NCBI RefSeq assembly: GCF_900499075.1
Contig: NZ_UIHC01000007.1
Coordinates: forward strand, 62,001 to 126,000
DNA from: Roseinatronobacter ekhonensis
GTDB taxonomy: Bacteria; Pseudomonadota; Alphaproteobacteria; Rhodobacterales; Rhodobacteraceae
Direction: 5' to 3'
Length of the DNA: 64,000 bases
Below the pieces are notes generated by a model. The model made no database searches. It had not been told where the DNA came from and saw only the letters and a program-made list of their open reading frames with translations. Positions within the stretch are counted from its first letter, which is position 1. Each line of letters starts with the position of its first letter. Of the stretch, positions 48,321-50,433 are shown piece by piece. A program made the translations under genes and the position numbers.

Positions 48321-49532
48321 GTGAAAATTCTGTTCGTGCATCAGAATTTTCCGGCCCAGTTCAAGCATTTGGCACCCGCATTGGCCGAACGCGGGCATGA
48401 GGTGGTCGCTTTGACCGCCGAAAGCAACCGGCAGCAAACCCCGATCCGCAGCTTTCGCTACCCAATGCCGGACGCGGCACCCAAACCGGGTCAGGCAAGG
48501 CTGGCCACGACCTACATGGCCATGACCGACCGCGCGCACCGTGTGGGCCGCGCGGCGTCGCAGTTGCGCGACAAGCTGGGCTTTGTACCGGATGTGATAT
48601 TTGGCCATTCAGGATGGGGCGAAACCCTGTTTCTGAAAGAGGTTTTCCCCGACGCACGCCTGTTGGTCTATGCCGAGTTCTATTATGGAACCAAAGGGTT
48701 GGACGTGGGTTTTGACCCGGAATTCGCAAGCAACGACCCGTTTTCGGGATTTCCCGTGATTGCGCGCCAGTCGCATCTGGCCCTGTCCATGGTGCAGGCC
48801 GATGCCGCCCTTGCGCCAACCGAATGGCAGGCCGATACGTTCCCGCCGGAATTGCGGTCAAAAATCACCATCACCCATGACGGGGTGGATACCGATGCCC
48901 TGATGCCCAACCCGCAAGCGCAATTCACTCTGCCCAACGGTCGGTTGTTGCGCGCGGGTGATGAGGTTCTGACCTATGTCACCCGCAATATAGAACCTTA
49001 TCGCGGGTCACATATCTTTATCCGCGCTCTGCCGCAGATATTGGCCGCCCGACCGGGCGCGCAGGTAGTCATTGTTGGCGGGGATGGCGTCAGCTACGGC
49101 ATGTCCCCGCCCAACGGCACATGGAAAGAGCGGTTCCTGTCAGAGATTGCGGGCGCGCCGGGGCTGGAGCGTGTGCATTTTCTGGGCCGCGTGCCCTACC
49201 GCGATTACGTCACGTTGATGCAGATCTCGCGCGCCCACGCTTACCTGACCATCCCGTTCGTGCTGTCATGGTCCCTGCTGGAAAGCATGGCCATGGGCGC
49301 GCATGTCATCGCCTCGCGGACCGCGCCGGTGGAAGAGGTCGTCGTCGATGGCGTGAACGGACAGTTGGTCGATTTCTTCGATGTCGACGCATGGTCGGAC
49401 GCGCTGACCACCGCGCTTGCCAACCCCGCAAGCTTTGCCGCGCGGCGTGTGGCCGCACGCAAGACGATTGTCGAGAATTACGACCTGAAACGCCTGTGCC
49501 TGCCCCGCCTGATCCGCTTTGTCGAAGGCTAA
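48321..49532 (+). CDS. Family 4 glycosyltransferase
   Basis: 403 residues, GT-B fold. The N-terminus KILFVHQNFPAQFKHLAPAL belongs to the PF12000-type glycosyltransferase domain, and the C-terminal GT1-type domain holds TYVTRNIEPYRGSHIFIRALP, VIVGGDG and LLESMAMGAHVIASRTAPVEEVV with the donor-binding Glu. Start codon is GTG after GGGGGCGG. It stands alone; acceptor and product are unknown (surface polysaccharide likely). It converges on dddL with a four-base overlap. Confidence 0.85.
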   Translation: MKILFVHQNFPAQFKHLAPALAERGHEVVALTAESNRQQTPIRSFRYPMPDAAPKPGQARLATTYMAMTDRAHRVGRAASQLRDKLGFVPDVIFGHSGWGETLFLKEVFPDARLLVYAEFYYGTKGLDVGFDPEFASNDPFSGFPVIARQSHLALSMVQADAALAPTEWQADTFPPELRSKITITHDGVDTDALMPNPQAQFTLPNGRLLRAGDEVLTYVTRNIEPYRGSHIFIRALPQILAARPGAQVVIVGGDGVSYGMSPPNGTWKERFLSEIAGAPGLERVHFLGRVPYRDYVTLMQISRAHAYLTIPFVLSWSLLESMAMGAHVIASRTAPVEEVVVDGVNGQLVDFFDVDAWSDALTTALANPASFAARRVAARKTIVENYDLKRLCLPRLIRFVEG

Positions 49533-50224
49533 CGCGCTGGCTTTGGCGCGCGGTTGAAGACCATCTTCTGATTTGCCAGCTTGTCGGTCGCGCCCATCCA
49601 TGCATAGGCCAAAAGCGACGGTTCATGATCCGCAACCGTGATCCGGTGCAACTGCCCCGGCTGGTTAAAGATCAGAGATCCGGGCGCATAAACGCCTTGG
49701 TCGTTTTCCGACACCGCGCCTGACAGGCACAGATAGCTTTCGGTAATACCGTCATGCGCGTGCGCCGGATATGTGCAACCCGGGGCGAACAGCACAAGAC
49801 CCATAATCACTTCATCCGTCACAACAGGGCCGGTGGGCCCGACCAGTTCGGCATAGGCGAACTTCCGTTCCAGCCCACGCGGCACTTTTTCATAGCCGTA
49901 CTGCCAGCGCAGCTTGTCGTGCACGGCATCAATGGTGCGGATGAATGCGGCGTGCTTCGCTTCGCGCCCCTGGTCCAGCGCGCGGCGGAAATGCTTGGTG
50001 ACGGGCTTGTCCATCGGCGGCAGATCGGCGATCGGCGGGTTGGCCTTGATGACCCGCGCGATGCGCTCGCGCACGCCGCGCTGGTGCGCGCGGATTTTGG
50101 TACTGCCGCCAGCGGGCAGATGGCGGTAAAGCTCGTAGAAATCACGCAGCAGATACCGCCATTCGGGACGGTCTGACAGGTGCAACAGGGGCACGGTCGC
50201 GGGATCTGGCAAGAGGTCGGTCAT
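49529..50224 (-). CDS. dddL: Dimethylsulfoniopropionate lyase DddL (cupin)
   Basis: 231 residues. The cupin metal site reads YPAHAHDGITESYLCLSG with H155, H157, E162 and Y164, plus H193 in QLHRI. This H-x-H-x4-E-x-Y pattern near the C-terminus and the N-terminal helical part (YLLRDFYELYRHLPAGGSTKIRAHQRGVRER) match the DddL family, which splits DMSP to dimethyl sulfide and acrylate. All metal ligands and the proposed base Tyr are present. No acrylate-detoxification gene is adjacent. Identity is from recall of the family; alternatives are other DMSP-lyase-like cupins (DddQ, DddW), which are differently sized at the N-terminus. Confidence 0.82.
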   Translation of the reverse strand: MTDLLPDPATVPLLHLSDRPEWRYLLRDFYELYRHLPAGGSTKIRAHQRGVRERIARVIKANPPIADLPPMDKPVTKHFRRALDQGREAKHAAFIRTIDAVHDKLRWQYGYEKVPRGLERKFAYAELVGPTGPVVTDEVIMGLVLFAPGCTYPAHAHDGITESYLCLSGAVSENDQGVYAPGSLIFNQPGQLHRITVADHEPSLLAYAWMGATDKLANQKMVFNRAPKPAR

Positions 50225-50248: not shown

Positions 50249-50282
50249 AGAAAGACGCCGCCCTGAACGACAGAGCGGCGCC
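50249..50282 (-). terminator. Probable terminator of the rpmJ transcript
   Basis: On the minus strand GGCGCCGCTCT and AGGGCGGCGTC pair over 11 positions (two G-U) around a seven-base loop and are followed by TTTCT. It lies 26 bases after the rpmJ stop, before dddL. Confidence 0.65.
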
Positions 50283-50307: not shown

Positions 50308-50433
50308 TCAGCCCTGACGTGCCTTGAACTTCTTCTGTGTCTTGTTGATCACATAGACGCGGCCTTTGCGGCGCACGATCTGACAATCACGGTGGCGCTG
50401 CTTGAGCGACCGGAGCGAATTCTTGACCTTCAT
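50308..50433 (-). CDS. rpmJ: 50S ribosomal protein L36 (zinc-ribbon-less, YkgO-like form)
   Basis: 41 residues: starts [14 protein letters not shown] and ends KKFKARQG. It has one Cys ([18 protein letters not shown]) in place of the four zinc ligands of classical L36, so it is the C-minus form. AGGAG lies eight bases upstream of the ATG at 50433. The tRNA-Val gene is directly upstream on the same strand. Confidence 0.93.

Follow-up and report, generated by a model that had tools for sequence, protein, structure and literature searches.

An intact and conserved DMSP lyase gene, dddL, located behind rpmJ in Roseinatronobacter ekhonensis

Introduction

In the account given in PMC3017554, dddL stood as a single-gene unit in every species known to carry it in 2011 except one, and all dddL strains described there as tested were Ddd+; Loktanella vestfoldensis SKA53 was among the strains assayed for dimethyl sulfide (DMS) production. 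The same account describes an acuR-acuI-dddL operon in Rhodobacter sphaeroides 2.4.1, in which dddL is co-transcribed with the genes for an acrylate-responsive repressor and a reductase. A cloned Ahrensia DddL, just 46.98% identical to the DddL of Sulfitobacter EE-36, was described as working in E. coli (PMC6309047). For the lyase DddQ, PMC4437653 gives the active-site set as Y120, H123, H125, E129, Y131, and H163. The gene dddL is also listed in PMC11035741 among the genes of alkaline ikaite columns. A literature search confined to the genus names Roseibaca and Roseinatronobacter found no paper linking the former to DMSP or dddL to the latter.

Here we describe dddL in Roseinatronobacter ekhonensis, within a stretch of 64,000 nucleotides that is referred to below as the window. 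The gene codes for a lyase of the same family as that of the R. sphaeroides 2.4.1 operon; in that operon acuR and acuI adjoin dddL, whereas neither was found in the window. Its one-gene arrangement is that of nearly all dddL bacteria, as PMC3017554 presents them. In length and active-site residues the window DddL is like the DddL proteins of other Rhodobacterales (Sulfitobacter EE-36, SKA53, Roseibium/Labrenzia, and R. sphaeroides), but these differ in chromosomal place. The site beside rpmJ and convergent with a glycosyltransferase-like gene was seen solely in six genomes that we call Roseibaca-like (G000, which holds the window, G015, G019, G040, G047, and G048), a label inferred from their nearness to Roseibaca domitiana V10.

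Gene location and identity

According to the open reading frame list of the window, dddL occupies positions 49529-50224 on the minus strand and codes for 231 amino acids from an ATG start. The features of the region are as follows.

48321..49532, plus strand: glycosyltransferase-like gene, matching several glycosyltransferase models, none over its cut-off
49529..50224, minus strand: dddL, cupin DMSP lyase, assigned from PF16867, active-site residues, fold model, and dN/dS
50254..50282, minus strand: terminator-like hairpin of rpmJ, 12 pairs with a loop of 5, then TTTCT, assigned from folding and alignment
50308..50433, minus strand: rpmJ, type B 50S ribosomal protein L36, 41 amino acids, assigned from NCBIfam NF002021

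A sequence-only reading of this DNA had proposed a DMSP lyase gene here, flanked by a glycosyltransferase gene and rpmJ, and it gave the position of the frame exactly and both flanks correctly. The encoded protein is similar to DddL over its whole length and scored 129 bits against the Pfam DMSP_lyase family (PF16867; cut-off 27, E 1.8e-37). In a profile search this was the genome's single match to PF16867, and 14 control genomes gave none over the cut-off; such a match is far beyond chance. The protein matched no NCBIfam DddL model. When it was searched against the sequences in the PDB, DddQ and related lyases came out on top with weak scores, ChrR followed, and no close solved relative turned up. 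Since the NCBIfam and PDB matches to non-DMSP cupins such as ChrR were weak, an identity of that kind was rejected. The DddL identity proposed earlier thus held: the best matches were DMSP lyases, the Pfam score lies far over its cut-off, the key residues are conserved, and the predicted fold is closest to solved DMSP lyases.

Active site, fold and relatives

The metal-ligand residues named in the sequence-only reading (H155, H157, E162, Y164, and H193) are all present and correctly numbered, and Y152 accompanies them. Together they make up the cupin motif HxHx4E, the histidine of the second motif, and nearby tyrosine. Among 107 DddL sequences, 17 of which were taken as second records of genomes already included, Y152, H155, E162, and Y164 were kept in every one, H193 in 106, and H157 in 105.

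An AlphaFold2 model of the protein, built with 22 aligned sequences, had a pLDDT of 89.7. After structural realignment of Foldseek matches, from which all Z scores given here derive, the twelve best rows were all DddQ, DddY, or DddK. DddQ (PDB 4la2, 5jsp, 4b29, 5cu1) was alike in fold, with Z scores of 21.2-21.9 over 184-190 residues, followed by DddY (16.4-16.5) and DddK (11.7-12.0); the best non-lyase cupin reached 11.2 and others scored lower. By motif, the DddQ residues Y120, H123, H125, E129, Y131, and H163 listed in PMC4437653 match Y152, H155, H157, E162, Y164, and H193 of the window protein. DddQ differs in sequence, at about 21-23% identity, and in having three residues between the second histidine and the glutamate where the window DddL has four.

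The 22 aligned relatives were 44-95% identical to the window DddL. Among named relatives, Roseibaca domitiana V10 is the closest, with 95% identity in DddL and 82-100% in the neighbouring genes. Identity to DddL of other Rhodobacterales was measured on the protein of Yoonia (Loktanella) vestfoldensis SKA53 (63%) and on two Roseibium aggregatum proteins (62 and 64%). The window protein groups with the DddL of a strain and a species with reported DMS or DMSOP-lyase activity, namely SKA53 and Labrenzia aggregata.

Two observations were made on the wider family. Outside the genus, DddL matches in the family Rhodobacteraceae fell into two bands, at approximately 60-70% and 45-52% identity to the window protein, and a plasmid-borne DddL (44%) with AcuR and AcuI neighbours lies near the lower one; two DddL subtypes with different neighbourhoods may therefore exist. 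Desulfogranum mediterraneum DSM 13871, of the Thermodesulfobacteriota, has a DddL-like protein (L095:8001-8681) that is 61% identical to the window's and pairs in the tree with one from a Cocleimonas MAG, both on long branches. It was excluded from the protein alignments as the extracted range read through a stop codon. Transfer of this gene between phyla is possible.

Chromosomal setting

The product of rpmJ scored 82.3 bits against NF002021 (cut-off 70), with 40 of its 41 residues covered. The gene lies upstream of dddL on the same strand, while the glycosyltransferase-like gene is convergent with dddL, the two stop codons overlapping by 4 bases. Of the 37 genus genomes, 36 have a match to the glycosyltransferase-like gene. 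Strong matches to dddL occur in 27 of the 37: 25 are nearly whole in length, and two, on short contigs, cover part of the gene. A further, 28th match was weak (25 bits). Six of the strong matches lie at rpmJ and nineteen of near full length lie elsewhere, each of these nineteen with pyrG upstream. The pyrG gene itself was present in all twelve genus genomes checked, where dddL stood beside it in G010 and not in the six Roseibaca-like genomes (the visible flank being just 376 bases in G047 and 840 in G015) nor in G012, G018, G021, G050, and G052.

Glycosyltransferase loci were fetched from 30 of the 36 matching genomes, and dddL adjoins the gene in six of them but not in the other 24, one of which (G012) shows just 187 bases on that side. 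In G010, G021, and G022 a hemN-type ORF occupies the side equivalent to that of dddL; the ORF of G021 scored 380 bits to hemN (cut-off 325), and those of G010 and G022 share 78% identity with it. The Roseibaca-like genomes carry hemN elsewhere, on a different contig or, for G048, at a distance of about 240 kb. From other genus members, 24 loci around the gene on the far side of rpmJ were fetched; 20 show rpmJ and 16 show about 1 kb past it as well, and in none of these is rpmJ adjoined by dddL or the glycosyltransferase gene.

The sequence-only reading had suggested that dddL was inserted into a housekeeping stretch. Comparison of synteny bears out a distinctive site, with a junction common to six genomes, but not an insertion into a once continuous stretch: in the loci compared where dddL is absent from the site, rpmJ and the glycosyltransferase gene were not found side by side. 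Plain insertion was accordingly rejected. The same observation places dddL at a rearrangement seam in the six genomes. The simplest reading of these gene orders is that the rpmJ and Opp-glycosyltransferase blocks were joined, with dddL at the seam, when a common ancestor of the six genomes underwent a rearrangement; an alternative is that the junction was ancestral and was later broken in other members of the genus.

In G047, alone among the six genomes, about 100 bases with an imperfect palindrome (L145:848-952) lie between dddL and the glycosyltransferase gene; L022 and L113 cover the same place. The insert is edged by CTAGAGC and GCTCTAG and looks like a small mobile repeat that landed at the stop codon of dddL. 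For the 24 bases at its core, exact matching found nothing in the other 218 of 221 loci, and a search allowing up to three mismatches found nothing in the window.

Transcription

From the end of the rpmJ hairpin to the ATG of dddL there are 29 nt, and in an alignment inspected by eye the hairpin is kept in all six junction genomes. A scan marked it as well, on a shorter stem. Taken whole, the 84-nt stretch was only modestly more stable than shuffled sequences (z -1.62, with 15 of 200 shuffles as good), which counts against the hairpin. In 17 other genus loci with enough sequence, inspection by eye shows rpmJ likewise trailed by a hairpin rich in GC and then a run rich in T. Between positions 49400 and 50800, a scan for one promoter type found no sigma-70-like site, with 0.4 expected by chance.

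The gene may be transcribed by read-through, from a promoter overlapping the hairpin, or from another type of promoter. One conceivable arrangement, which we regard as unlikely, is that dddL lacks its own promoter and depends on transcription reading through the rpmJ terminator; DMS release would then track ribosome production and growth rate and not DMSP or acrylate. If that were so, dddL would have settled on two occasions immediately downstream of a housekeeping gene, a shared tendency that would account for the pyrG site in the rest of the genus.

Acrylate and other DMSP-related genes

Neither AcuR nor AcuI was found in the 64 kb window by tblastn with one reference each, from plasmid pSC52_2, at limits (E 1e-8 and half the query) that a very divergent AcuR could escape. 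Among 80 named dddL loci, with flanks of up to 8 kb that were in many cases cut by contig ends, an acuI-like gene was found in one flank and an acuR-like gene in none. The earlier remark that dddL stands here without acrylate-processing neighbours is thus true of the window, but it marks nothing special; such isolation is the normal state of dddL in these loci and in the account of PMC3017554.

An AcuI-type gene is present on another contig of the same genome. Its product scored 455 bits against TIGR02823 (cut-off 297) and 430.7 bits against a stricter AcuI model, just under the cut-off of 440 that only 4 of the 37 genus genomes passed. AcuI-type matches of at least 375 bits occurred in 32 of the 37. 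Where dddL matched strongly, all genomes but G003 and G006 have one (25 of 27), and so do 7 of the 10 genomes lacking a strong dddL match. On contig C134 of G000 (L138:9071-12023), the AcuI-type gene lies head to head with a gene resembling DASS sodium-coupled anion symporters, whose model match of 108 bits is below the cut-off of 198.6. The genome also has a BCCT-type transporter, a kind able to import betaine-like solutes. For DMSP demethylase, two of the eight PF01571 matches in the genome were scored against the NCBIfam DmdA model and gave 97 and 89 bits (cut-off 410).

Predicted function and maintenance

Judged from sequence, conservation, and fold model, DMS release by the window DddL is a well-supported prediction. 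The protein would act as a metal-dependent cupin that splits the marine compound DMSP, giving off gaseous dimethyl sulfide along with acrylate and a proton. If it works as DddQ, DddW, and DddK do, a divalent metal held by H155, H157, E162, and H193 would bind the carboxylate of DMSP, and Y164 would take the alpha proton, upon which the C-S bond would break. The acrylate would then be handled by the AcuI-type acryloyl-CoA reductase whose gene lies on another contig. We infer DMSP-lyase function with confidence because the tested dddL strains of PMC3017554 are described as Ddd+, the SKA53 protein is 63% identical, and a DddL with 46.98% identity to that of EE-36 was functional in the account of PMC6309047.

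Selection on dddL was estimated within the six genomes that share the rpmJ-site junction, using seven of their 15 possible pairings. The window gene gave dN/dS values of 0.030, 0.044, 0.060, 0.095, and 0.116 against five close relatives, and two further pairs gave 0.095 and 0.057; over the seven pairs dN was 0.027-0.087 and dS 0.582-0.887.

The best explanation of the locus, and in our judgment a highly probable one, is a working DddL that cleaves DMSP, with acrylate passing to an AcuI-type reductase elsewhere and dddL lying at the seam between rpmJ and the Opp-glycosyltransferase block. We consider it quite improbable that the protein, while still a lyase-like cupin in fold, has drifted away from DMSP, for example to DMSOP as its main substrate or to a non-sulfur compound. 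Lei et al. 2018 reportedly speaks of lyase-like cupins of unknown function within the cupin lyase family, which would favor such drift. Tested cupin DMSP lyases are also described as cleaving DMSOP, although the DddL among them cleaved DMSP more efficiently in the results given in PMC10686828, and the window protein both keeps its active-site residues and groups with the DddL of SKA53 and Labrenzia aggregata, for which activity is reported. That the gene is decaying or silent, cut off by a terminator upstream, as the nearby hairpin and the missing promoter-like site might suggest, is hardly to be expected when the frame is open in six of six junction genomes, dN/dS is 0.03-0.12, and the active-site residues are kept.

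Origin of the rpmJ-site copy

The six rpmJ-site dddL sequences formed one group in the tree and the nineteen pyrG-site copies another. These trees omitted the 17 named loci taken as duplicate genomes, and a second tree also omitted eleven long or distant rows. The best tree of this second analysis joins the two groups with support of 98/67, below the starred level, but trees joining either of them with the Marivita/Phaeobacter/Tateyamaria lineages were not rejected (p-AU 0.314 for the rpmJ-site group and 0.31 for the pyrG-site group). Relocation within the genus and a second gain of dddL both stand. That the Roseibaca-like clade acquired its dddL separately from the copy at pyrG, out of some other lineage of Rhodobacterales, is a real but tentative possibility: it would accord with the p-AU result, with the different sites of the two copies, and with identities that, as best segments of unequal lengths, were 70-77% to Phaeobacter, Marivita, Lutimaribacter, and most Tateyamaria (68% for two Tateyamaria) as against 66-71% to the copies at pyrG within the genus. 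Besides the best tree, composition speaks against it, since the GC content of dddL (0.62, and 0.74 at third positions) is like that of its neighbours and bears no foreign mark. Carriage by phage was not supported, a viral-contig scan giving one pattern match and no relative, nor was carriage by plasmids, of which three records matched, one over most of the protein at 44%.

Conclusions

The dddL gene at 49529-50224 is an intact, ordinary, and conserved DddL gene by its sequence, and the enzyme is biochemically nothing new. At a limit of E 1e-30, which all 27 strong matches among the 37 genus genomes also pass, dddL was found in 44 of 295 genomes in a family sample that includes two from the genus. 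The particular feature of the gene is its chromosomal place behind rpmJ, a local detail of a small bacterial group, and the missing promoter is a modest question. With this gene, bacteria of the Roseibaca/Roseinatronobacter type join those with the genetic means for DMS release.
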